The translations under genes and the position numbers were made by a program. A stretch of DNA of 25,559 nt from IMG/VR virus record IMGVR_UViG_3300042352_001251, positions 1-25,559 of that record; one strand, 5' to 3'. The notes below the pieces were generated by a model that saw only the letters and a list, made by a program, of their open reading frames with translations, was not told the origin of the DNA and did not search any database. Within the stretch, counting starts at the first letter, position 1, and every line of letters starts with the position of its first letter. The DNA comes from a virus. Positions 182 through 19,965 of this stretch are shown here, one piece after another.

Positions 182-664
182 TTACCATGTGATTATCCCA
201 ATCCCTAAATCTCCGCTGTAGAACCTGATTGACTTTGGAATGCTTGATTGATACACTCTTTCTAAGTCCCATCTTATTTTATCGCCAACCATTCTACCAG
301 TGGCATTGCTAGGCAAGTCTGTACTAGACATAATATCCCCATTATCATCAACTATTTCGTTCACATTTTCCATAGATGAATCTGCTTCACTTGATGATGC
401 TATAAATTGTTGTAGATATTTTTTAAATAAACTTTCAGGTTTTTGACTTTTTTCTTTGTTTTTAGAATACCATTTTACAAAATCATCATAGTTAGCGGCA
501 ACACTCATAGGCTTACCGTAAGTTGTTGTAAAATCTATTCTTATGTAATTATCATCTTTAGACAAAGAAACATCACTAACGTCTTTTACTGAACTCTCGT
601 CCAAATAAAAAAAGTCTTTTGTGTTTTCATTTAAGAAACTCAAATATAAATCTTTGATTCTCAT
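182..664 (-). CDS. Hypothetical protein, 160 aa, GDKIRW motif
   Basis: An acidic, mostly soluble protein of 160 residues with no recognised family. Its N-terminus (MRIKDLYLSFLNEN) is a short amphipathic segment. The middle is a low-complexity Ser/Glu/Asp linker, and the C-terminus carries MVGDKIRWDL followed by alternating hydrophobic residues that look like a small beta barrel. A near-identical motif, KGDKIRWEI, occurs in the C-terminal part of the 145-residue protein at 16073-16510. The ATG is 13-15 nt downstream of a TATTTATA box at 677-687, so it may have its own late-type start as well as belonging to the leftward operon. Structural or virion-associated function is possible but unproven. 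Confidence 0.75.
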   Translation of the reverse strand: MRIKDLYLSFLNENTKDFFYLDESSVKDVSDVSLSKDDNYIRIDFTTTYGKPMSVAANYDDFVKWYSKNKEKSQKPESLFKKYLQQFIASSSEADSSMENVNEIVDDNGDIMSSTDLPSNATGRMVGDKIRWDLERVYQSSIPKSIRFYSGDLGIGIITW

Positions 665-3140: not shown

Positions 3141-3821
3141 TTAATCTTCTTTTAAAAGAGTTTCGCTTAATTTCTTAGCTTCTTCGTTGATAAAATTAAT
3201 CAACTCAGCTTTATTCTTAAAAGACTCTGGTAATTGAATTCCTTGAGCAATTCTTTCTGCTGTTTCTTTTTCATTTTGAGCTTTCTCAGAGAATTTTGCT
3301 GCATGTTGACCTGTAGAAGCTCCTTTGTGCAATTCCGCACCTGGCTCAACATAAGTCTTAGCGCCACCTTCATCAGCTTTGTCTTGAGAATTCATCTCAA
3401 CTTTTTCTTTTCTTTCTTCAAAAGGAGTAGAAGATGCTGTAGAAGGATTTTTATCTTTAGATTCAAAGTCTGAATTTTTCATTCCCTCAACTGAAGGACC
3501 TTTTTTTGTTGAACTTGTAGCATCGACTTTAACAGCTGCAGCTATTTGCTCATCATGACCTTGGTCTCCATCCATTTCATTCATGTCAACTTCTAACGGC
3601 TCTTCTGTATCCTCAATATTTTCAGCAGCATCAGGAGCAGCACTTTTCTTTTCGAAACCACCTTTTTCTTTTGCCATAACTAAGGCGTCACCTGTAGAAT
3701 TTCCAGGATTTGTCATTTTATTCATATCAACACTTAAAGGATCACCTAAGCTCATAATTTTTTCAGCTTCAGCGATAATCATCTTTTTAAGTTCTGAAAG
3801 GTTTAGTTTTTCTGTGGCCAT
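3141..3821 (-). CDS. Hydrophilic low-complexity protein with capsid-targeting-like N-terminus
   Basis: A 226-residue acidic protein rich in Ala, Glu, Lys and Ser, probably extended or disordered with helical ends. The N-terminus, MATEKLNLSELKKMIIAEAE, is an amphipathic helix with [L/I]-x-E sites L8-S-E10 and I16-A-E18|A19, the pattern cut by T4-type prohead proteases. A short internal repeat, PLxVDMNxM, occurs at residues 28-36 and 75-83. The C-terminus (residues ~190-226) is again helical. The gene stands alone: a divergent promoter region lies upstream and a terminator downstream. A scaffold, prohead-core or injected internal protein is a reasonable inference; no enzyme motif is present. 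Confidence 0.7.
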   Translation of the reverse strand: MATEKLNLSELKKMIIAEAEKIMSLGDPLSVDMNKMTNPGNSTGDALVMAKEKGGFEKKSAAPDAAENIEDTEEPLEVDMNEMDGDQGHDEQIAAAVKVDATSSTKKGPSVEGMKNSDFESKDKNPSTASSTPFEERKEKVEMNSQDKADEGGAKTYVEPGAELHKGASTGQHAAKFSEKAQNEKETAERIAQGIQLPESFKNKAELINFINEEAKKLSETLLKED

Positions 3822-3933: not shown

Positions 3934-4461
3934 ATGAAAAATTATAATAACAAAAAAACTGAAGAACACAAGATAAACACCAACATTAAAGAATTTGAGG
4001 TGAGGTTGGTTGATTTACCTGAACAGTATGAAAATGGAGTGTACAAAACAGATGTTGCCTTAAGAATAGCAGAGGAAATAGGTTCTGATTTGATTCTTAT
4101 TTCAGACAAAGCCAAACCTGTAATATGTAAGATTATGGATTATTCCAAATTTAAGTATGAAAAAAAGAAAAAAGAAAAAGATTTAAAAAAGAAGACTTCC
4201 GTTTTAAAAGAATTGAAGTTTAGTCCTGATATTGCAGAAAACGACTTAGCGATAAAATCAAAAAAGGCAATAGAATTTTTGAATGATGGGAATAAAGTTA
4301 GAGTAACTGTTCAATTCAAGGGAAGGGGAATTGTTTTTAAAGATAGAGGTACAATTGTTTTGCTTAAACTAGCAGAGCTCGCACAAGAAGCTGGTGTTCC
4401 AGATTCTATGCCTGAATTAAACGGAAAAAGAATGTCTTTCACATTAAAACCTAAAAAATAA
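3934..4461 (+). CDS. infC: Phage-encoded translation initiation factor IF-3
   Basis: IF-3 binds the 30S subunit, keeps 50S off, and checks initiator tRNA and start-codon choice. This 175-residue protein has both domains at near-normal length. The N-domain (about 10-75) holds the alternating ALRIAEE, DLILISDKAKP, VICKIMDYSKFKYE signature and leads into a Lys-rich linker (about 75-88). The C-domain (about 92-175) holds KELKFSPDI, FKGRGIVFKDRG and the C-terminal GKRMSF...PKK. The FKGR-x-I-x-FK stretch and the VYKTDVALRIAEE region recall Bacteroidota IF-3 more than the enterobacterial form, which suggests capture from such a host. It is the first gene of a two-gene operon under a phage-type promoter. 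A bacterial origin of the whole contig is unlikely given the neighbours. IF-3 genes have been reported in some huge phages. Confidence 0.9.
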   Translation: MKNYNNKKTEEHKINTNIKEFEVRLVDLPEQYENGVYKTDVALRIAEEIGSDLILISDKAKPVICKIMDYSKFKYEKKKKEKDLKKKTSVLKELKFSPDIAENDLAIKSKKAIEFLNDGNKVRVTVQFKGRGIVFKDRGTIVLLKLAELAQEAGVPDSMPELNGKRMSFTLKPKK

Positions 4462-6639: not shown

Positions 6640-7230
6640 TTAAATCGCTTGATCTTCAGTTTTAGGATAGTTCAATTTATCTCTCCATGTTTTTTGCCAA
6701 ACAATAAAATGATTATATAAATTTTCAGAAATCATTTTTGTATCATTATCTAACTTTAGATTTTGAGCATTTAAAGTAACACCATTCATAATTGAATAAA
6801 ACCATGTAATTTTCCCATCACTTCCGAGGTTAATTATACCAGAAGCAATAGCATCAATCCCATCAGATTTTTTTGTAGCCAATAATGAGTATCCATTTTT
6901 TTGCTTGTTAAAAACAATTGTTGCATTTGGAAGTGCACTTAAAAATTCTTTAAAACTATCTTCAAATTCTCTTATTTCTGTTTTTGTTATTTTAACGTCG
7001 TTCATGTTATTTTCTTTGATTGTGAAAGTTTTAGAAGAACCTACATCTTGTTTAGGTTCGCTACCTCCAAAGAAAAGAACTTTATCAAAATCATCTTCAG
7101 TTATTTCTTCTGATTTTAAATATGATTCAGAAGATTCAATTTTCTCTTGAGACTTAGATTTTTTGGCTTTATCAACTAAAGCATTTCTAATTTCCGAACT
7201 AATCAATTCAGATAACTCCTGTTTATTCAT
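6640..7230 (-). CDS. Hypothetical protein, 196 aa, possible virion component
   Basis: A 196-residue soluble protein of unknown family. Residues 1-20 (MNKQELSELISSEIRNALVD) form an amphipathic helix with an L-S-E site, loosely like the capsid-targeting leaders elsewhere in the window. Residues ~20-85 are a charged, probably flexible linker. Residues ~85-190 form a mixed alpha/beta domain (ATIVFNKQKNGYSLLATKK, GKITWFYSIMNGV). It starts 3 nt after the upstream gene's stop and has a candidate late box at 7246-7256 inside that gene's 3' end. Confidence 0.75.
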   Translation of the reverse strand: MNKQELSELISSEIRNALVDKAKKSKSQEKIESSESYLKSEEITEDDFDKVLFFGGSEPKQDVGSSKTFTIKENNMNDVKITKTEIREFEDSFKEFLSALPNATIVFNKQKNGYSLLATKKSDGIDAIASGIINLGSDGKITWFYSIMNGVTLNAQNLKLDNDTKMISENLYNHFIVWQKTWRDKLNYPKTEDQAI

Positions 7231-9023: not shown

Positions 9024-9521
9024 TTAACCTTTTTTACCTCCAGTAATATTAGCTTCACCGCTATATACTGTTGAATCTTGGAAATAACCCGCTGTTCCAT
9101 CTGGCGCTTTTAATTCTGGATTCCAATTAGAATATTTAGCAGATGGATTATAACCGTAATAAATTAAATATTTAGGTTTTTGTTCTGCTGTCATTTTATT
9201 GTATATATTAGATTTAGCTCCTTTTAAAGCTGGATCTGTAATTACAGCTATACCCTTCGTTCTTGCTTCCGCATCATTAGTTGGATTTATTTTTAAATCT
9301 TCTCTACGAGCAATTTCTTTAGGTGTTAATTCTTCTTTTTTTCCAAAACCAAAAATCTCTTCTAATTCTTCTGTTTCTTCTGTATCTTCTGTATACATCT
9401 CCTGAAGTCTACTAAGAAGTTTTTTCTTTTCAGCCTCTAGAGTCAATTTCTTTTTAAATCTAGCAGCTTCCTCAGAGATAATTTCTCTAAGTCTAGATTC
9501 TGATATGATTTCTTTTTTCAT
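9024..9521 (-). CDS. Leader-family protein 1, candidate head-internal protein
   Basis: A 165-residue protein starting with the shared leader EIISESRLREIISEEAARF (residues 4-22), then KKKLTLEAEKKKLLSRLQEMY to residue 43. The leader holds [L/I]-x-E sites I6-S-E8, L11-R-E13, I15-S-E17 and L39-Q-E41; the last coincides with the end of similarity to its paralogues. After an acidic linker (~44-60), residues ~70-165 are a separate domain (GIAVITDPALKGAKSN, KPKYLIYYGYNPSAKY) of unknown family with a Gly-rich tail. The analogy is with T4 internal proteins, whose capsid-targeting sequence is removed by the prohead protease. A late-type box precedes it, and a bidirectional terminator follows. Confidence 0.75.
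   Translation of the reverse strand: MKKEIISESRLREIISEEAARFKKKLTLEAEKKKLLSRLQEMYTEDTEETEELEEIFGFGKKEELTPKEIARREDLKINPTNDAEARTKGIAVITDPALKGAKSNIYNKMTAEQKPKYLIYYGYNPSAKYSNWNPELKAPDGTAGYFQDSTVYSGEANITGGKKG
9398..9521 (-). repeat. Leader-coding repeat, copy 1
   Basis: The first ~125 coding nt (residues 1 to about 42) are nearly identical to 10731-10858 and 11665-11792, with differences mostly silent. This copy is the most diverged of the three. Sequence after the block is unrelated among the three genes. Confidence 0.85.
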
Positions 9522-9540
9522 AGGTTTTATTTTTTATTTT

Positions 9541-9551
9541 ATTATAAATAG
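9541..9551 (-). promoter_or_regulatory. Candidate late-type promoter box
   Basis: The minus strand reads CTATTTATAAT, about 22 nt before the ATG at 9521, within the duplicated divergent block. Confidence 0.45.
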
Positions 9552-9604
9552 TTTATAAAAAGTGTTTTATATTATTGTAACCTTTTGAATTTAATTGCGT
9601 ATAA
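9543..9604. repeat. Duplicated divergent promoter block, copy 2
   Basis: Counterpart of 8373-8434: TATAAATAGTTTATAAAAAG followed by GTGTTTTAT, then TTGTAAC and GCGTATAA. Most differences from copy 1 are single-base changes. Confidence 0.65.
9575..9604 (+). promoter_or_regulatory. Early-type promoter for gene at 9626
   Basis: TTGTAAC at 9575-9581 and GCGTATAA at 9597-9604, offset 22 nt. The leader to the ATG at 9626 is about 20 nt and A-rich. Confidence 0.6.
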
Positions 9605-9625
9605 GATGATATAAAAACAAATATT

Positions 9626-9991
9626 ATGGAAAATATTAGCCAAGAAGAATTTAATGAAGGTTTGAGAGCTTATAAAAACGTTTCTACCGAAGAAGTCGAG
9701 AAGATAAATAAAAAATTTAAACTTATTTTGTTTTTATATAACAAAAACATATTGTTTATATTACTTTGGTTTTCAGTAATGTTACCTGCTTTTTTTCTAT
9801 ACATATTTGCTGGTGTAAATTATATAACAAACCTATTTGCCTCGTTTATGTTTGTGATTTACCCAATAATATTCTTTTGTATTAAAAAAACAATATTTAA
9901 ATATAGTGAAATAGAAGATGAATACTTTAGAAGGAAAGTTCATATTTTTGAATACGTTTTAAAAGATAGAAAAGAAAAAAGGGCTGAATAG
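9626..9991 (+). CDS. Small two-helix membrane protein, 121 aa
   Basis: A 121-residue predicted inner-membrane protein. Residues 1-38 are a charged cytosolic-type segment (STEEVEKINKKF). Two transmembrane helices follow, ~42-62 (ILFILLWFSVMLPAFFLYIF) and ~67-86 (ITNLFASFMFVIYPIIFFCI). The tail is charged and basic (RRKVHIFEYVLKDRKEKR). Positive ends suggest both termini face the cytoplasm. No signal peptide. The same layout recurs in the 112-residue protein at 10963. The early-type promoter suggests host modification, such as superinfection exclusion; a holin is an alternative but the promoter class argues against it. Its stop lies inside the following terminator stem. Confidence 0.72.
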   Translation: MENISQEEFNEGLRAYKNVSTEEVEKINKKFKLILFLYNKNILFILLWFSVMLPAFFLYIFAGVNYITNLFASFMFVIYPIIFFCIKKTIFKYSEIEDEYFRRKVHIFEYVLKDRKEKRAE

Positions 9992-10007
9992 CCCCTTTAT
10001 TTTTTTA
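9975..10007 (+). terminator. Intrinsic terminator
   Basis: A-run, then GGGCT (9981-9985), a 4-nt loop, AGCCC (9990-9994), then CTTTATTTTTTT. The gene's TAG stop (9989-9991) is within the hairpin. It separates the plus-strand gene from the convergent gene ending at 10019. Confidence 0.75.
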
Positions 10008-10018
10008 TGTGATTCCAA

Positions 10019-10858
10019 TTATTTTGACCTTGGAATGCTTAACATATCTTTTACTGTATCTACAAAACCAAGTCTTTGATCAGCAGCAAGTAATCCTTGA
10101 ATACCCGCTTTATCAGCTATTCCGTTTAGATATTTATCTATTTGCTGTATTACTAAACCTTTAGCTCTAGCATCTGCAGCTTGTTTAAATTGATTTACAT
10201 ATGTCAAAAGATTTTGATCTTTAACAGTATTAGCAGCTAATTCGATATAACCTTTTTTAACTTTTTTAGCCCCTACTATAAGTTTAATTATTCCCAATAC
10301 AAATGTAAGTGCAGCTGAATAGACAAGTGGGTTTGCTAACAAAAACCCACCTGGAATTGCACCAGTAGCTACAGCCCATCCAATTCCAGCTAATATAATA
10401 CCTACAACAGAAGACCCAAGTCCAAGACCTTTTAGTATTTTACCGAATCTAATTTTAAATTCACCAATATTTTCTTTAACAGTTTGCCCATCTTCTTCAT
10501 TTAAACCATATTCTTTTAATATGTTTTGAGCGACAGTAGCAGCTTGTTTTGCTTCTCCTGCAGGATTGCTAATCGCATCTTGAGCTTCTGAATCTTGACT
10601 GACAGCTTGAGCAACTTGATCTGGAGTCATTTTTATAGCAGCTAAAAAACCTTGAACGTCGGCTTCTGTAGCTGGTCTTACTTTAACAGACTCAGCTCCT
10701 TCTTCCGCTTCATCCATCATTTCCTCCATATACATTTCATTAAGTCTATTAAGAAGTTTTTTCTTTTCAGCTTCTAGAGTTAATTTCTTTTTAAACCTAG
10801 TAGCTTCTTCAGAAATAATTTCTCTTAATCTAGATTCTGATATAATTTCTTTTGCCAT
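10019..10858 (-). CDS. Leader-family protein 2 with two membrane helices
   Basis: A 279-residue protein. Residues 1-45 are the shared leader (AKEIISESRLREIISEEATR ... RLNEMYMEE) with [L/I]-x-E sites including L39-N-E41. Residues ~46-135 are acidic and Ala/Gln-rich (TPDQVAQAVSQDSEAQDAI). Residues ~146-200 contain two hydrophobic stretches (VVGIILAGIGWAVATGAIPG and YSAALTFVLGIIKLIVGA) that look like a helical hairpin. The rest is helical (AAQ/KQ-rich). A packaged protein able to insert into a membrane would suit a role in genome entry or exclusion (inference). Another structural protein with a hydrophobic core segment is possible. A late-type box lies 20 nt upstream. Confidence 0.75.
   Translation of the reverse strand: MAKEIISESRLREIISEEATRFKKKLTLEAEKKKLLNRLNEMYMEEMMDEAEEGAESVKVRPATEADVQGFLAAIKMTPDQVAQAVSQDSEAQDAISNPAGEAKQAATVAQNILKEYGLNEEDGQTVKENIGEFKIRFGKILKGLGLGSSVVGIILAGIGWAVATGAIPGGFLLANPLVYSAALTFVLGIIKLIVGAKKVKKGYIELAANTVKDQNLLTYVNQFKQAADARAKGLVIQQIDKYLNGIADKAGIQGLLAADQRLGFVDTVKDMLSIPRSK
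10731..10858 (-). repeat. Leader-coding repeat, copy 2
   Basis: Codes for residues 1 to about 43. Very close at DNA level to copy 3 (11665-11792), with few substitutions (for example Thr20 instead of Ala20). Similarity extends upstream over the TTATAAATATG promoter-like stretch. Confidence 0.85.
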
Positions 10859-10877
10859 TGATTTTGTTTTTAATTTC

Positions 10878-10888
10878 TTATAAATATG
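10878..10888 (-). promoter_or_regulatory. Candidate late-type promoter box
   Basis: The minus strand reads CATATTTATAA, about 20 nt before the ATG at 10858, identical to the box at 11811-11821. Confidence 0.5.
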
Positions 10889-10905
10889 AAAAAAATTAAA
10901 AATCT

Positions 10906-10935
10906 TTGTAACATATTTATATTTATAGCGTATAA
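10906..10935 (+). promoter_or_regulatory. Early-type promoter for gene at 10963
   Basis: TTGTAAC at 10906-10912 and GCGTATAA at 10928-10935, offset 22 nt. The leader to the ATG at 10963 is about 27 nt. Confidence 0.6.
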
Positions 10936-10962
10936 TGTAGTATAAACATAAATTGATATATT

Positions 10963-11301
10963 ATGAATAGTTTAACCTCTGAAATGAAAGAAGAACAAGA
11001 AAAACAAAGAAAAGAGAAATTGGAACTTATTAAAAAGTTTCAAGAAAAATTGAAGTTTTCAGTGGTTAGCCTTGTATTCTTTATTATACTAACTGGATAT
11101 ACATTATTTGTTCCAATTATATTTATAGGTGCTATTTTACCTATTTTATTTGGAGCTACCTCTATTATTTTTATTCAACAAATAATTCGTTCTTATAACT
11201 ACCTTGAATTTTATAAAAATAATTATAGTTTTATGGAAAGCGTATATAATATAGTGGAACAAGGAAATGAAATAGAACAAAAAAAAGAGCAACTAAATTA
11301 G
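10963..11301 (+). CDS. Small two-helix membrane protein, 112 aa
   Basis: A 112-residue predicted membrane protein. Residues 1-31 are a highly charged helix (EEQEKQRKEKLELIKKF). Hydrophobic segments lie at ~32-50 (FSVVSLVFFIILTGYTLF) and ~52-71 (IIFIGAILPILFGATSIIFI), and the tail is charged and Tyr/Asn-rich. The architecture matches the protein at 9626 although sequence similarity is low, and both have the same promoter type and lie head-to-head with a leader-family gene. Function is unknown; membrane exclusion or host-takeover roles are guesses. It ends in an intrinsic terminator that overlaps the stop codon. Confidence 0.72.
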   Translation: MNSLTSEMKEEQEKQRKEKLELIKKFQEKLKFSVVSLVFFIILTGYTLFVPIIFIGAILPILFGATSIIFIQQIIRSYNYLEFYKNNYSFMESVYNIVEQGNEIEQKKEQLN

Positions 11302-11318
11302 CTGCTCTTTTTTTTTAT
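11281..11318 (+). terminator. Intrinsic terminator, probably bidirectional
   Basis: AAAAAAGAGCA paired with TGCTCTTTTTT, an inner CTA/TAG pairing in the loop, and a T-run of about 11. The TAG stop (11299-11301) is inside the hairpin. The A-run on the left gives a T-tract on the minus strand as well, so it may also end the gene at 11337. Confidence 0.8.
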
Positions 11319-11336
11319 ATCTAAAGACTTAAATTT

Positions 11337-11792
11337 TTATTCTGCTCCTCCGCCAAAATTATGACCTCCAGCAAGTGACCCTTTAGCGCTTGCACCAAAC
11401 TGTTGAAGTTTAGTAAGTTGTGGTTTAAAAGATAAAACTAAAAATGTCTTTTTTGAATTTGGTGCCAAACGAAGTTCTCCTTTAAAAGGGATACTTGCTT
11501 TTTCAGCCTGCCTCATTATTTCTTCTTTAGAAGGCTTAATCTCCCAACCTTTAGGAGCTTTTACTAATACAGCATCTAATTCTTTTTCAAAAGTTTGTTT
11601 GTTAGCTGATATTTCTGCTTTGCTAGGACCAAACAAACCCTCTTCAAGAGAATCTTCCTCCATATACATCTCATTCAGTCTATTAAGAAGTTTTTTCTTT
11701 TCAGCTTCTAGAGTTAATTTCTTTTTAAACCTAGCAGCTTCCTCAGAAATAATTTCTCTAAGTCTAGATTCTGATATAATTTCTTTTGCCAT
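11337..11792 (-). CDS. Leader-family protein 3, candidate head-internal protein
   Basis: A 151-residue protein. Residues 1-46 are the shared leader, almost identical in protein and DNA to that of the 279-residue paralogue, with L39-N-E41 at the junction. After an acidic linker (EEDSLEEGLFG), residues ~55-135 are an unrecognised alpha/beta domain (KQTFEKELDAVLVKAPKGWE, ELRLAPNSKKTFLVLSFKPQ), and the tail is Gly/Ala-rich (GSLAGGHNFGGGAE). No membrane segment. Like its paralogues it has a late-type box just upstream. The role as a packaged, processed protein is inferred from the leader only. Confidence 0.75.
   Translation of the reverse strand: MAKEIISESRLREIISEEAARFKKKLTLEAEKKKLLNRLNEMYMEEDSLEEGLFGPSKAEISANKQTFEKELDAVLVKAPKGWEIKPSKEEIMRQAEKASIPFKGELRLAPNSKKTFLVLSFKPQLTKLQQFGASAKGSLAGGHNFGGGAE
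11665..11792 (-). repeat. Leader-coding repeat, copy 3
   Basis: Third copy of the ~125-nt 5' coding block (see 9398-9521 and 10731-10858). Similarity stops shortly after the codons for NEMYMEE. Confidence 0.85.
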
Positions 11793-11810
11793 AGCCTTTG
11801 TTTTATTTTC

Positions 11811-11821
11811 TTATAAATATG
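11811..11821 (-). promoter_or_regulatory. Candidate late-type promoter box
   Basis: The minus strand reads CATATTTATAA, about 20 nt before the ATG at 11792, in the 73-nt gap after the helicase gene. No clear terminator is seen in that gap, so helicase transcripts may read through. Confidence 0.5.
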
Positions 11822-11865: not shown

Positions 11866-13800
11866 TTATTGGTTTTTTATTTTTTCAATCAAAGCCTTTA
11901 GCATATTATAATCCCCTGTATGAACTTTTTTATCCACCCTTTTGTTGTCTAAAACCATAGTTACTACTTGGTCTTTTTCATCTAAAAACTCCATTATATC
12001 TTCATCTATAGTCCCAGAACAATATAAAGTAATAATTTGAATATTGTCGTGAGTTGTTGATGCTCTGTGAATTCTATCTTCGGCCTGCATCATATCTCCA
12101 GGCGTCCATCCAAAACCTAAAAAAATCAAACGACTTGCCTCTGTAAGACTTATTCCAACTCCAGAAGCCATAATCATACCTGAGAAAATTTTGATGTCTT
12201 TATTTTTTTGAAAACTTTGGTATGATTCAAACTTATCATTCTCGCTCATAGATCCAGTATGTAGAACTGATATTTTTGGAAATAGTTTATGCACTTCTTC
12301 GGCAAGTTCTTGCAAGTCTGACATAATTACAACTTTTTCACCACCATCAATTATGTCTTGAATGTAATCTACAGCTCTTTTTAGCTTGCATCTACCTGTA
12401 AACAATTTTAGTTTTGCAATTTTTGCCAAATAAGATTCTTCTGTAGACTTTCCGTCTTTATCTTCTTTTTTGAAAGATTTTATAATTTGTTCGTATTCTT
12501 TATACTCAGCATCCGTTAATTCGATTGGAACATTAGTATATGTTTTAGGAGGTAAATCCTTCAATACATCTTTTTTCAACCTTCTTAAGAACACCCCTGA
12601 TATTCTAGTGAACAATTGTTCTAAGTTAGATACGCCACTATAATCCCAACCAAAGCCAGTATCATATCCAGCGCAATACTTAACGCCAAACTCATGTTGA
12701 TTATTCCACTCGTCTTTATTCAGAAAGTTCAAAGAAGTAAAAAACTCAGAAGGTCTACTTTTAATTGCTGTTCCTGAAATTAAAATCTTTCTAGGAACAA
12801 CATCCCTAAAAGCACGCACAATTACTTGTGTCCATCCCGTCTTCTTTTCTTTGATTCTGTGTGACTCATCAATTACAATCAAATCATAGTCTTCAGGGTT
12901 TAAATACTCTCCAAAACCATCTTCGAAATATTGCAAGGAATGAAATGTTGACTTAAATGTTTTTTTGTTTTTACATTGAGGACATTCTGTTTGAGTCTTG
13001 TTTAGGTTTATTATTTCACAACCACACTCTGTCATACCATTTCCAGCGGTTTTAACCATCTTGCCCTTACACTTATGTTTATATTCAATTTTAATGTAGC
13101 TATCTAAAGATTCATAGTTTATAACATGAAAAAGTGATTCATCTTTTTTATAAGCCACATCTTTACTTCTTTTTTTGGGAACATATTTGTAGACAAACGC
13201 TTTCTCATTTGTGAAGTCATCAATCTCTTTTCTCCAATTAAGCTTTAGGGAAGATGGGCATATAACAAGTGTTTTATATTTATGCTTTACAGCGTAAGAA
13301 ATAGCAGACAAGGTTTTTCCGACACCTGGTTGATCTCCGAGTATTGCCCTTCCATCATTTATTTCGAAAAACTTTACTGCTTGTTTTTGATAATTATATG
13401 GTTGTTGTTTTAAGAAAGAATAATCTTCATTTTCAACACTTAATTGTTCAGCTTTAAGTCTTAATATTTCCGCAAGCCTTTTCTGCCTATCTAAATATTC
13501 CTGTCTTAATTTATTTATGTCGTCCTCTGGTACATTTTGAAATGTGAACGGGATTCCGTTATCAACCATAAAGTTAATTACGTTTCCCATTGCATATTCA
13601 CGGACAGATCTTACCCATTCATCTTTTTCTACACCATCGGCATTTATTATAGAATCTTTTCTAGTAGTTCTGTGTTCTTTAGGAAGTGACTTTATGAACT
13701 CGGACAACATTTTATTAAAATCATATCTAAGTTCATAATTCGCCTTCAACTTTCTTATGTTTACAGGGTTCTTTTGTGAATCTGATTGTTTCTTTGCCAT
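11866..13800 (-). CDS. SNF2-type (SF2) DNA helicase/translocase
   Basis: A 644-residue ATP-dependent DNA translocase, probably acting on forks or recombination intermediates, as T4 UvsW does in its system. Motifs in order: Walker A GVGK162T in a QPGVGKTLSA context; TLVICPSSL; DESH box D311-E-S-H314; LISGTAI (motif III); a second RecA-like lobe with HTGSMSE, SGVGISLTEA (motif V) and QAEDRIHR579 (motif VI, Q572-R579). The DESH box and the IHRA motif favour SNF2/SMARCAL1-like over UvsW proper. An insertion between motifs Ia and II has five Cys (C244, C259, C261, C273, C276), probably a zinc ribbon. It is the last gene of a four-gene operon with a nuclease, following the Hc1-like gene by 1 nt. 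Confidence 0.88.
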   Translation of the reverse strand: MAKKQSDSQKNPVNIRKLKANYELRYDFNKMLSEFIKSLPKEHRTTRKDSIINADGVEKDEWVRSVREYAMGNVINFMVDNGIPFTFQNVPEDDINKLRQEYLDRQKRLAEILRLKAEQLSVENEDYSFLKQQPYNYQKQAVKFFEINDGRAILGDQPGVGKTLSAISYAVKHKYKTLVICPSSLKLNWRKEIDDFTNEKAFVYKYVPKKRSKDVAYKKDESLFHVINYESLDSYIKIEYKHKCKGKMVKTAGNGMTECGCEIINLNKTQTECPQCKNKKTFKSTFHSLQYFEDGFGEYLNPEDYDLIVIDESHRIKEKKTGWTQVIVRAFRDVVPRKILISGTAIKSRPSEFFTSLNFLNKDEWNNQHEFGVKYCAGYDTGFGWDYSGVSNLEQLFTRISGVFLRRLKKDVLKDLPPKTYTNVPIELTDAEYKEYEQIIKSFKKEDKDGKSTEESYLAKIAKLKLFTGRCKLKRAVDYIQDIIDGGEKVVIMSDLQELAEEVHKLFPKISVLHTGSMSENDKFESYQSFQKNKDIKIFSGMIMASGVGISLTEASRLIFLGFGWTPGDMMQAEDRIHRASTTHDNIQIITLYCSGTIDEDIMEFLDEKDQVVTMVLDNKRVDKKVHTGDYNMLKALIEKIKNQ

Positions 13801-15524: not shown

Positions 15525-16076
15525 ATGTTACTTAGCGAATCATATAAAAATAGACTCAAAGAGCTGGCTGGTTTAATACCGCTAGATGAAGCAATGAGTG
15601 TAGCCGAAAAAACATCTGCTATGAATAAGAGTTCTGAACGATTTGGATTTAACGCTGAATCTATGAAACAGGCTATAGAACAAGGTCGTGAAGTAGGGTT
15701 AAACTTTCAATCCAACAACAAAAAATATAAAATGCCCACAACAAAATCCAGAATTATTTGGCCTGTGGCAATGGGTGTGGATGAAAAAGGAAATCTTGTA
15801 ATTAGAGGATATCACTTAGCTGGGCAATCTGAAAAAGTAGCAAGAGAAACAGGCTCTAGAAGTGCAGAGGCACAAGATGTTTGGAGACTTTTTAAAGTGT
15901 CTAATATTAAAAGTATGTGGCTTACAGATAACTTCTTTAGCGAAATGCTACCAGGTTACAAAGAAAGAGATAGTGCAATGGTATCTATGATGGCTAGCTA
16001 TAGCCCTGCAAAAGCAAAGGCGTACCAAGACTCTATTCAAAACCAAACAGAGCCAAATCAAGAACCAAAAGTTTAA
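15525..16076 (+). CDS. Hypothetical protein with capsid-targeting-like N-terminus
   Basis: A 183-residue protein, the only plus-strand gene in the right half. The N-terminus (LLSESYKNRLKELAGLIPLD) is a short amphipathic helix with [L/I]-x-E sites L3-S-E5, L11-K-E13 and L20-D-E22|A23, resembling the leaders of phage internal proteins. Residues ~70-145 are beta-rich (RIIWPVAMGVDEKGNLVIRG, WRLFKVSNIKSMWLTDNFF), vaguely like a WYL/SH3-type barrel; this is weak. The C-terminus is a Gln/Pro-rich tail. CATATTTATT lies only 5 nt before the ATG, closer than at other late-type sites. The stop overlaps the convergent gene by 4 nt. Confidence 0.7.
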   Translation: MLLSESYKNRLKELAGLIPLDEAMSVAEKTSAMNKSSERFGFNAESMKQAIEQGREVGLNFQSNNKKYKMPTTKSRIIWPVAMGVDEKGNLVIRGYHLAGQSEKVARETGSRSAEAQDVWRLFKVSNIKSMWLTDNFFSEMLPGYKERDSAMVSMMASYSPAKAKAYQDSIQNQTEPNQEPKV

Positions 16077-16510
16077 ATAATCAATAATTTTTCTGCTTTA
16101 CCTTTTATGCTTTCTAAATTTGCAGAACAAGAAGTATAGCCTAACTTTGACCCTTCTGATAAAAAAGATTTATTTTTTACATATAAATTATATATTGAAA
16201 ATCCTCTTTTTATTTCAAAAATAAGCATATTTTTTACAAATCCTTTTAGCAGTCCGTTATTGACTATTTCCCATCTTATTTTGTCTCCTTTTTTAAGAGC
16301 ATCTTCAATTGTTTTTATTTTTTTTTGCTCTTGCGCTTTTCTTTGATTATCTCTAATCTTTCTATCTACAATTGATTGAATGGCTTGGCGCTGAAGCATT
16401 TCTTTTTCATACGCCTCCATTCTAATTTTTAAAGCTCTTTCTTCTGCAGCTCTTTTTATGAACTCGGAAGGATTTTCTTCTATTGGGTTATCTTCGTATT
16501 CGTCTTGCAT
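16073..16510 (-). CDS. Coiled-coil protein with GDKIRW domain, 145 aa
   Basis: A 145-residue protein. Residues ~15-75 are a continuous charged helix (RAAEERALKIRMEAYEKEML, QRKAQEQKKIKTIEDAL), probably a coiled coil. Residues ~76-145 begin KGDKIRWEI and continue as strands (LIFEIKRGFSIYNLYVKN), suggesting a small SH3-like barrel. The same GDKIRW motif ends the 160-residue protein at 182-664. Its ATG overlaps the stop of the Mre11-Rad50 fusion by one base (TAATG), so it is translationally coupled to it. A cofactor of that nuclease is possible. Its 3' end overlaps the convergent gene. Confidence 0.72.
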   Translation of the reverse strand: MQDEYEDNPIEENPSEFIKRAAEERALKIRMEAYEKEMLQRQAIQSIVDRKIRDNQRKAQEQKKIKTIEDALKKGDKIRWEIVNNGLLKGFVKNMLIFEIKRGFSIYNLYVKNKSFLSEGSKLGYTSCSANLESIKGKAEKLLII

Positions 16511-19500
16511 TATGATATAGATAAAGTTGTCACACCTGCTTCAGGATTTGATTCTAAAACTTCTTGAGGAATACCTTTCTTTATTTTTGTTACCTCTATA
16601 ATATTATCAGCAAAGTCCTTAATTTCATTTTTGTGAGTGACAAAAATTACAGTCTTATGTTTACTCTTTAAATATTGTAAAATATTTACAATCTCTAAAG
16701 AAAGTCTGCCACTTAACGTACCAAACCCTTCATCTATAATAGACATAGATGGTTTTGTAAGTGTGCTAATAAAATGTAAAGCATCCTTAATTGCTATTGA
16801 TGCTACAAATTTTTGTGCCCCAGAAGAAAATTGTAAAGGAAGAGAATCTGACTTATCTTCACTGTAATAGAAATACTCAAATATATCTCCATTAGGAAGA
16901 ATGTCTAATTCAACTTTAAACTCTACAATTTGTTGTAATATAGAATTTATCTTACTGTTTATTATAGGAAGTTTTTTTCTAATAATTAAAGCAGGAATTC
17001 CATCTCTATGCATAGCTTGTAAATAAATTGAATATTTTTTAAACATTCTCTCTACTTCTTTTATAGAATCTAATTTTTCTGAGTTTATTTTTATATCAGA
17101 CTCCAAAACTCTAATATCTCCATATACTTCAGTAATACTTTTATCTATACCATATAGTGTTAATTTATATGCCTTTATAAGTTCACTTTGTGAATCTATA
17201 TATTCTTGAATAGATTTGTTTTTACTTTCTTTTTGTTTGTTTTCAGAAATCTTCAATAAATTCTCACTTAATGTTTCTATGTTTTTTTCCGCTTGTGACT
17301 TTACTAATCTACCCTTTTCTAATCTAAAAGAATTGTCTTCAACTTTTTTATTGTGCTCTATAATTTCTTTCATAGATTCAAAAAGAGATAACCTATCTTT
17401 AAGTAAGTCTATTTTTTCCTTTCTATTTTTTAACGAATCGGCAATATTATTCTTTTTTTCAGTCTGACCATCAATTGCTAAATTTTGCTTTGTGATATCA
17501 TTATAAGAATTTATGCTACCTTGCAAAGTGGCAATTTCTTCTTTTTTTAATTCTATACTAGCCAAACATTCTTTTTCTTTTTCTGGATCCGCCTTTTGTT
17601 GAATGTTTCCGCAAGTCGGACAAGATTTACCACGAAGTGTTGGAAGTTGATTTTGCAAACCTGTTACTTCTTCTCTAAGTGATATTATTTTTTCATCTAA
17701 ACCGTCAATGTTAGGTAAATATTTTTTTACATTTTCTTTTAACCAAGAATCTATTTTTACATAATCATCTTTTTCTGTCTTAAAAACAGATTGTACGGAT
17801 GTTAGCTCTTTTGATACACTTTCTTCTGTTTCGCCTTCTTTAAATGGTAATTCTTTTTTGAAATTTACAGATAACCATTCTTCAAGCTCCTTAATAGCAT
17901 TATTGTATTTATCTATATTTTCCCCTTCTTGCTTAAGTAAATTATTTACCACAGAAGAATCGCTATATTTTAATTGTTCTATTTTTTCTAACTTCTTAGT
18001 TTGTTCTAGAACGTCAGTTTCTATATTTTCTTTGTTTTTTGAAACCTCTTCTTTGTCTAACTTCAATCTTTCAAGCATAATATCTTTTTCTGATTTATCT
18101 TTTTCTAAATCAGTAAGCTTTAATTCGATTTCTAATTTAGCTCCAATTTCTTTTTGCTTCTTTTTTATCTCCTTAAAATACTCATTAGCATATTCATAAC
18201 GCATTTTATATGCCTCTAATCCTAAATACCTACTTATTAATGAGTTTTTAGGTTGTTGACTTTGATTTATATAATCATCCTTACCTCCTTGAACCTGTAG
18301 TGTTACTTTTGTAAAATCATCCACATCTCCAATAGCTTCTTCAACCAAACTTTCAACCTCTCTTTTCTCCGCTGTTGCTTTGTCTGATTTTTCATTCTCC
18401 CAAGACTCACTTTCTAAGTCACCATCACCATCATAACCTAGTTCTAAAGATTGATATTTTATACCATATGAATTTGATATCTTTCCGTCTTTATGTTTAG
18501 TTGTTTTTACAGTACGATGAATCTTAAATTTTTTGCCATCTATATTTAAATAAACAGTTACATATCCTTGGTTAGATTCTGTATATAAATTAACAAGGAA
18601 CTTAGGGTCACCTCCACCCAATATTTCCTTATAAAGACCCCAAACAATTGCTTTAATTACATTAGACTTACCGTTATAGTTTTCTCCAAATAACCCAGTA
18701 ATACCATTAAGTGAATTAAAGTCGATAATTGTCGGCTTAATTGGAAAAGAAAAAATATTGCTTATTTCTATTTTTTCCATATACCACGAACTACCAGTTT
18801 TATCTTCATGTTCATTTATACCAAGCTCTTGATTAATTTGAGCATTTAACTTTAAGATATCGACAATCTCATCATTATCACAATCAAATGTACCATCAGC
18901 AATAAATTCTTTAATATATTCTTCACTTTGTTTTCTTGGATCTTCTTCAGCCTCATCATCAACAAGAATATCTTTAGCAACAAAAGAGTGTTCCACTTTT
19001 ACGATTTCACACCCATGAAGCTCCTTTATTTGTCTTGCAACTTGGTTTTCTCTTTCTTGGGAAAAATTTTCTTCTAATTCCTCAATAATAATATGAACTC
19101 TAGTTTTCTTTTTATTATGACTAAATCTCAAATGAGTTAACCTATCTTCTATATTTTCACCTCGTGCAATTACAAGCTTAGAAAAACCATAATCATTTGG
19201 AACAAATTTTCTAACGTGAGAATTCGTATCTGTATCCCACAACAAATAGCCTTTATCTATAGATTCTCCATAATTCTGTTGTAACAAACTACCTGAATAC
19301 GCAACAGAAGCGTCATCTCTAAAACTTTGATATTCATGTATGTCTCCGAGCATTACAATGTCGAAATCCTTAAACGTACTCAAACGCATTAAATTGTCGC
19401 CCTTTTGTTCATATCCATTATCCCCTCTTGCGCCATAAACGGTTCCATGGTATAATGCTATATACTTCTTTTTATCCTTCTTTTTCGAAAACTCTAAAAT

Positions 19501-19965
19501 CTCATTATCTTTACAAGAAAAAACTCCATAAACAACACCATTGCCTATATCATAAAAACCGCTATCTGGAAAATAATATACAGCATTTTTACTGTAATCA
19601 ATTTTATCTTTATTTTCATCAGTAACAATGAAAGCAGTCTTATCTCCATCCTTTTCAAACATACTACCCAACTTGAATATTGGTGAAATGGCATCACCTT
19701 GCTCAAGCTGTTGCAAGTTTAAATCGTGATTTCCTAATATTACATCAGTTGGTGCTATTTTTGATAAATTCAAAAGAAGCTCTGCTAATAATTCAAATGA
19801 ATTTGGCGACATATTAATTTTATGATGTACCAAATCACCCCCAAGAAAAATTCTATCAGGTTTTTGTATTTTTAAATCATCATAAAGTCTTTGAAATACT
19901 TGTCTATATTCGTCGTGTCTAGATCCAAAACGTATTTGAACATCCGCAATGTGTGCAATTTTCAT
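16510..19965 (-). CDS. Single-chain Mre11-Rad50 (SbcD-SbcC) fusion
   Basis: A 1151-residue protein joining what are separate subunits in T4 (gp47 and gp46) and most bacteria (SbcD and SbcC). Residues 1-~340 are the Mre11/SbcD phosphoesterase: HIAD8VQ10, GGD44, GN79-H80-D81, YHG, and GDIH. Q10 replaces the usual metal-binding His. Residues ~400-1151 are Rad50/SbcC: Walker A GENYNGK433S, long coiled coil, zinc hook C782-P-T-C785, second coiled coil, signature LQFSSGAQKF, Walker B IID1078-E1079, and a His switch region FVTHK. The complex resects DNA ends to support recombination-dependent replication. One uninterrupted frame spans the junction (~340-400, an acidic linker), so this is a real fusion. 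It overlaps the primase gene by 4 nt (ATGA). Confidence 0.92.
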   Translation of the reverse strand: MKIAHIADVQIRFGSRHDEYRQVFQRLYDDLKIQKPDRIFLGGDLVHHKINMSPNSFELLAELLLNLSKIAPTDVILGNHDLNLQQLEQGDAISPIFKLGSMFEKDGDKTAFIVTDENKDKIDYSKNAVYYFPDSGFYDIGNGVVYGVFSCKDNEILEFSKKKDKKKYIALYHGTVYGARGDNGYEQKGDNLMRLSTFKDFDIVMLGDIHEYQSFRDDASVAYSGSLLQQNYGESIDKGYLLWDTDTNSHVRKFVPNDYGFSKLVIARGENIEDRLTHLRFSHNKKKTRVHIIIEELEENFSQERENQVARQIKELHGCEIVKVEHSFVAKDILVDDEAEEDPRKQSEEYIKEFIADGTFDCDNDEIVDILKLNAQINQELGINEHEDKTGSSWYMEKIEISNIFSFPIKPTIIDFNSLNGITGLFGENYNGKSNVIKAIVWGLYKEILGGGDPKFLVNLYTESNQGYVTVYLNIDGKKFKIHRTVKTTKHKDGKISNSYGIKYQSLELGYDGDGDLESESWENEKSDKATAEKREVESLVEEAIGDVDDFTKVTLQVQGGKDDYINQSQQPKNSLISRYLGLEAYKMRYEYANEYFKEIKKKQKEIGAKLEIELKLTDLEKDKSEKDIMLERLKLDKEEVSKNKENIETDVLEQTKKLEKIEQLKYSDSSVVNNLLKQEGENIDKYNNAIKELEEWLSVNFKKELPFKEGETEESVSKELTSVQSVFKTEKDDYVKIDSWLKENVKKYLPNIDGLDEKIISLREEVTGLQNQLPTLRGKSCPTCGNIQQKADPEKEKECLASIELKKEEIATLQGSINSYNDITKQNLAIDGQTEKKNNIADSLKNRKEKIDLLKDRLSLFESMKEIIEHNKKVEDNSFRLEKGRLVKSQAEKNIETLSENLLKISENKQKESKNKSIQEYIDSQSELIKAYKLTLYGIDKSITEVYGDIRVLESDIKINSEKLDSIKEVERMFKKYSIYLQAMHRDGIPALIIRKKLPIINSKINSILQQIVEFKVELDILPNGDIFEYFYYSEDKSDSLPLQFSSGAQKFVASIAIKDALHFISTLTKPSMSIIDEGFGTLSGRLSLEIVNILQYLKSKHKTVIFVTHKNEIKDFADNIIEVTKIKKGIPQEVLESNPEAGVTTLSIS

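Follow-up and report, generated by a model that had tools for sequence, protein, structure and literature searches.

How does a phage come to encode three adjacent proteins that begin almost identically and have little in common thereafter? The question is raised by the 25,559-nt IMG/VR contig IMGVR_UViG_3300042352_001251 of an uncultured virus, which was analysed over its whole length (positions 1-25,559; hereafter the window). By its gp46/47-type nuclease, UvsW-like helicase, primase, RuvC-like protein and tail proteins, it stems from a T4-like myovirus, of whose genome it covers a part. The three genes in question lie downstream of the helicase, all on the minus strand, and their products start with a common leader of about 45 residues. 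Here, we argue that this shared N-terminus is likely a capsid-targeting propeptide of the T4 type, longer than that of T4, and that the varied proteins bearing it would be packaged and probably injected. Its most likely role would be to load different proteins into the head for delivery into bacteria, similarly to T4, because relatives of this phage carry a matching head protease and a matching capsid cut site. The genes and their leaders are as follows.

11337..11792, minus strand: tagged gene 1, 151 amino acids, leader plus a 105-residue body; ortholog in the related contig G002 with 57% body identity
11658..11792, minus strand: leader of gene 1, residues 1-45; putative cut after E41, codon 11670-11672
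10019..10858, minus strand: tagged gene 2, 279 amino acids, leader plus a helical body with a two-segment hydrophobic hairpin (residues 141-159 and 172-190)
10724..10858, minus strand: leader of gene 2, residues 1-45; putative cut after E41, codon 10736-10738
9024..9521, minus strand: tagged gene 3, 165 amino acids, leader plus a 119-residue body; no copy in G002
9387..9521, minus strand: leader of gene 3, residues 1-45; putative cut after E41 (L-Q-E), codon 9399-9401

Residues 1-45 are nearly identical in the three products, with an invariant block K3-EIISESRLREIISEEA...E45. The leader DNA is pairwise 95.2, 91.3 and 88.1% identical over 126 nt, whereas the 40 codons after the leader align at 55-60%, which is background, and the mutual similarity among the three bodies is not significant. 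This confirms what a preliminary description, made from the letters of the window, had claimed: three minus-strand genes with a leader of ~45 residues that then diverge, the leader DNA being far more alike than the rest. The likeness also extends upstream, where the 70 bp before the three genes are 64-75% alike and the ~45 bp before each start are likewise similar; the shared part consists of a TATTTATA element and an A-rich stretch preceding the ATG.

The leader appears to be exchanged as a cassette, as the same description had proposed in terms of 5' swapping or duplication. In the relative G003, the gene immediately 3' of the helicase carries the same leader on an unrelated 205-residue body, and gene 3 is missing from G002. 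The gene 1 leader of the window is 95-96% identical to both gene-2 leaders as against 88% to its own ortholog, which suggests conversion or exchange of leaders between loci. Could the conserved unit then be DNA rather than protein, that is, a recombination hotspot or a 5' regulatory cassette in which the protein sequence is incidental? The upstream element and the leader DNA are indeed conserved jointly, and leaders seem mobile between loci. However, amino-acid changes are below those of neutral drift: the gene 1 and gene 2 leaders differ by four synonymous codon changes and one non-synonymous change, and since the changes are mostly silent, the protein sequence has been kept. The protein pattern also persists in the relatives G005, G035 and G034 despite dissimilar DNA, so that we regard a purely DNA-level effect as highly improbable. 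In G002, the helicase and the first leader gene are separated by an inserted open reading frame (ORF; L015:7980-8870) of 296 residues that overlaps the end of the helicase; by eye, its product looks like a homing-endonuclease-type protein.

When would the leader genes be expressed? Each is preceded by a similarly placed element:

11813..11819, minus strand: TATTTAT element of gene 1, at -27; candidate late promoter
10880..10886, minus strand: TATTTAT element of gene 2, at -28; upstream motif
9544..9550, minus strand: TATTTAT element of gene 3, at -29; upstream motif

No 8-mer is more enriched upstream of the ORFs of this phage group than TATTTATA (34 observed, 2.8 expected), which stands mostly 20-30 bases ahead of the start of scaffold, protease, neck, baseplate and fibre genes and of the three leader genes. 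Within the window, TATTTAT is found at the usual distance in 6 of 6 ORFs with an N-terminal core motif (LREIISE in the leader) as against 3 of the 24 others (P 1.4e-4). We consider TATTTATA a candidate late promoter element; on the coding strand, it is the reverse complement of the T4 late element, TATAAATA.

The leader contains four [L/I]xE sites (I6-E8, L11-E13, I15-E17 and L39-E41), the last of which had been singled out as lying at the junction with the variable part. A search for leader copies, suggested in the preliminary description, found six in three contigs, with L39-[N/Q]-E41 in all six. In G005 and G035, leader-type ORFs were defined by the form [LIVMFY]xx[x]IxEE (n = 6), and four of the six have an [L/I]NE ending at residue 36-42 (background 1.9%, P 1.8e-6; 3 of 5 when an ORF needing an added letter is left out). 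Beside the prohead protease gene of G005 there is also an adjacent pair (L117:12590-13183 and 13215-13652) with a different common leader, MASNK[LM]TKQ[NS]LV[SN]YIQEQV, followed by divergent sequence; judged from its sequence, this is another leader family.

An S77 prohead protease, the lack of which had been named as refuting the proposal, was looked for to the extent that contig fragments permit. The window and the four contigs nearest to it, fragments without exception, have none, and the syntenic contig G005 encodes one (E 9e-34; PF03420, 3e-32). Along with the protease, and ~30 kb from an A1/baseplate block, G005 carries genes for a capsid protein of the gp23 type (PF07068, 1.6e-71), a neck protein, a scaffold-like protein and a tail sheath. 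It can be linked to the window because another contig, G004, spans an A1-like gene and baseplate and tail genes up to the genes immediately before the helicase, joining the A1/baseplate block of G005 to the helicase block of the window. (A terminase reading of the G004 A1-like protein was dropped, as its annotations lead to T5 A1-like.) G005 and the leader-bearing G002 may be two parts of one genome, since both were recovered from the same sample and their gene contents complement each other. Nine aligned capsid proteins, those of T4 and the isolated Flavobacterium phage immuto included, have one invariant glutamate, at the column of E65, the known cut of T4 gp23. This site reads LNE in G005, G035 and G019, INE in G034, VSE in immuto and LTE in three further relatives and in T4, giving [L/I/V][N/T/S]E as the pattern, and the LNE of G005 and G035 is the same as the L-N-E with which the leader ends.

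In the 266-kb relative G034, 22 ORFs have the core within their first 26 residues as against 3.9 expected (P 1e-10). About 15 start like MNIIKIIKEEY, with short leaders, and some of them lie 2-6 kb from the protease gene. Their bodies include ART-PolyVal (1.6e-16), PolyA_pol (tRNA-nucleotidyltransferase/poly-A-polymerase, 5e-24) and GNAT (3.9e-5) matches. These data bear on the idea that the leader is an oligomerisation or adaptor helix on non-virion proteins, spread by gene duplication and unconnected with the capsid. Dimerisation could be mediated by a charged amphipathic helix, but such a helix would leave aside the late-type promoter held in common with scaffold and protease genes, the match between the cut sites of leader and capsid protein, and the effector-type enzymes with similar N-termini close to the G034 protease gene; we find this idea improbable. 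An export signal was ruled out because the leader is highly charged and has no hydrophobic stretch. The proposal that the three proteins form a T4-type capsid-targeting set is, on the other hand, supported by the S77 protease and capsid LNE of G005, the recurring [L/I]NE leader ends, the late-type promoters, the body exchange at a syntenic site and the effector-type bodies of G034.

What are the bodies? PHROGs and Pfam gave nothing convincing for the three, and none matched an ART family or a polyvalent domain. A tblastn search of 50,697 phage records with gene 1 gave no match, IMG/VR scans with the gene 1 and gene 2 bodies returned near-identical contigs or G002 only, and a PDB sequence search with the gene 2 body found no match. 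The two hydrophobic segments of gene 2 agree with the membrane hairpin that had been proposed for one of the proteins. AlphaFold2, run on two-row alignments, gave a poor model for gene 2 (mean predicted local distance difference test score 47.5) and a moderate one for gene 1 (66.8), in which a single leader helix spans residues 8-50, with low confidence at 46-54, and is followed by a small alpha/beta body. Foldseek found no PDB match with E <0.39 for the gene 1 model; a match to an uncharacterised phage protein (2e-4) was not used (template modelling score 0.39-0.46).

The closest known counterparts are the internal proteins IPI, IPII and IPIII of T4, which, like the window set, are small and alike only in the leader. 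IPII and IPIII start MKTYQEFIAEA and then diverge; targeting has been assigned to residues 4 and 7 of this leader and processing to residues 8 and 10 (PMC9026906). Ip1-3 have the leader alone in common, and each inhibits different GmrSD enzymes (PMC12373910). The T4 YQEFIAE has the same pattern as the LREIISE core, [LYF]xx[FI]IxE, including the T4 targeting and processing positions. An [L/I]xE is cut by an S77 protease in T4, as would be the case here, where the protease is found in relatives and the cut is putative, and the gene sets vary between relatives in both cases, as described for the ip loci of Tevenvirinae (PMC9026906, PMC12373910). The T4 capsid-targeting sequence (CTS) has 10-19 residues, in contrast to about 41-46 here; because of this length, we regard the leader as a variant of the CTS rather than a plain member. 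Further differences are that the cut motif of the window is L-N/Q-E, that there is no sequence likeness beyond the core pattern, that the candidate late element reads TATTTATA, and that packaging is putative here. T4 Alt, which begins MELITE, is a packaged and injected ADP-ribosyltransferase; a similar short N-terminus stands on the ART-PolyVal protein of G034, whereas the three window bodies match no ART family. ART-PolyVal, present in the tagged G034 protein, also links that protein to the polyvalent proteins that phages and conjugative elements inject (PMC5512222), but those of the window are short, and no polyvalent domain matches them. Ejection proteins of the SPN3US/phiKZ type, which the prohead protease cuts, are similar in that head-protein propeptides are lost in head maturation (PMC5694885, PMC10052503), but they belong to another capsid lineage; the comparison with them is one of description. 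The literature searched, subscription journals not covered, contained no report of such leaders outside Tevenvirinae.

Several points weigh against a cleaved capsid-targeting leader. The window contig has neither protease nor capsid genes, and the link to them is synteny across metagenome contigs. The leaders of the window are not independent of those of G002, and the regular expressions were adjusted after seeing examples. An [L/I]xE occurs in 23% of random 21-residue windows, so that a single such site within an E-rich helix says little by itself. Strict enrichment of the core motif fails in G005, G016, G032, G033 and G019, and universality is therefore not claimed. The leader is ~4 times as long as the 10-residue CTS of T4, the conserved block reaches residue 45-46, 4-5 residues beyond the proposed cut at E41, and in the gene 1 model the helix runs uninterrupted through E41. 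The last two points would suit a helix for packaging or core docking that stays on the protein or is cut earlier, at I15-S-E17 or L11-R-E13, as would the match of the core, with I-S-E at 15-17, to the T4 CTS including its IAE cut. Against this stand the presence of L39-[N/Q]-E41 in every leader copy and the recurrence of [L/I]NE near residue 40 in G005 and G035 leaders of differing surrounding sequence, and we consider an uncut or early-cut leader rather unlikely.

The process by which the capsid-targeting leader would act can be outlined as follows. Synthesis of the three proteins would fall late in infection, when those of the head are also made. Being a charged helix, the leader would dock via its LREIISE core in the scaffold core while the prohead forms, and the S77 prohead protease would cut after the glutamate of an [L/I]xE, most likely L39-[N/Q]-E41, to free the bodies within the head. 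The bodies would probably be injected with the DNA to act on the host, e.g. on its defences, that of gene 2 at the membrane; packaging, cutting, injection and cargo function are all inferred. New cargo would be gained when new bodies join the promoter-plus-leader cassette. Host defences are met early on by the proteins that a phage injects, yet beyond the T-even group the free variation of their bodies makes such proteins difficult to identify. If a leader is legible in the sequence and tied to the cut site of the capsid protein in the same phage group, many uncharacterised genes of T4-like environmental phages could be sorted into packaged and non-packaged, the packaged ones being anti-defence candidates, and the CTS delivery principle would reach beyond T-even phages.

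Is the code wider than the three genes? Four other genes in the window are candidates:

182..664, minus strand: possibly a further packaged protein; N-terminus MRIKDLYLSFLNE (T4-like YxxF[IL]xE), TATTTAT at -22
3141..3821, minus strand: possibly a further packaged or core protein; N-terminus LSELKKMIIAEAEKI, acidic, TATTTAT at -25
6640..7230, minus strand: possibly a further packaged protein; N-terminus MNKQELSELISSEI, TATTTAT at -25
15525..16076, plus strand: putative second-motif protein; N-terminal MLLSESYKNRLKELAGL, like the scaffold-like C-terminus of relatives, TATTTAT at -12

Phage immuto, which encodes an S77 protease and a gp23-like capsid protein, has N-termini of the MKKSxLxxLIKEE type and a second type, SEQFRRMQKLAGI, which resembles the C-terminus (SEQVSRWQKLAGIIK) of its own scaffold-position protein; its small proteins bear MKKSxLxxLIKEE and RMQKLAG N-termini. 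In the window, the corresponding N-terminal motif is LLSESYKNRLKELAGL (15525-16076, plus strand), with the immuto form ILSEQFRRMQKLAGIITE at immuto 25061 and 111675; scaffold-like C-termini resembling it are YESEEARRMKQLAGM and SEQVSRWQKLAGIIK (proteins L117:10295-11758 and L183:15627-16868). The LLSESYKNRLKELAGL/ILSEQFRRMQKLAGIITE motif is possibly a second head-targeting tag by scaffold mimicry. We put forward tentatively, and with somewhat more doubt than belief, that LxxII[x]EE tags combined with late TATTTATA-type promoters form a general head-packaging code for injected effectors among the T4-like relatives of this phage, with RLKELAG as the scaffold-mimicking second tag. If so, the LxxII[x]EE code would mark large sets of injected effectors, such as the ~15 of G034 with ADP-ribosyltransferase, nucleotidyltransferase and acetyltransferase bodies, and RLKELAG-tagged cargo would get into the prohead through its likeness to the C-terminus of the scaffold-like protein.

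Elsewhere in the window, a single 1151-residue ORF (16510-19965, minus strand) fuses SbcD-like and SbcC-like parts of the T4 gp47/gp46 type, and a phage-encoded homolog of translation initiation factor IF-3 is found at 3934-4461, plus strand (PHROG 9787, 3e-39). Two small membrane proteins, each with two transmembrane segments and with weak mutual likeness, are encoded on the plus strand at 9626-9991 and 10963-11301, convergent to leader genes 2 and 1, respectively, and under a promoter that differs from that of the leader genes; they are possibly partners or immunity proteins. GTAAC-N15-GCGTATA, a candidate early promoter by its sequence, precedes 3934, 9626 and 10963 on the plus strand, with a variant before 8524; it occurs three times on the plus strand and zero times on the minus strand.
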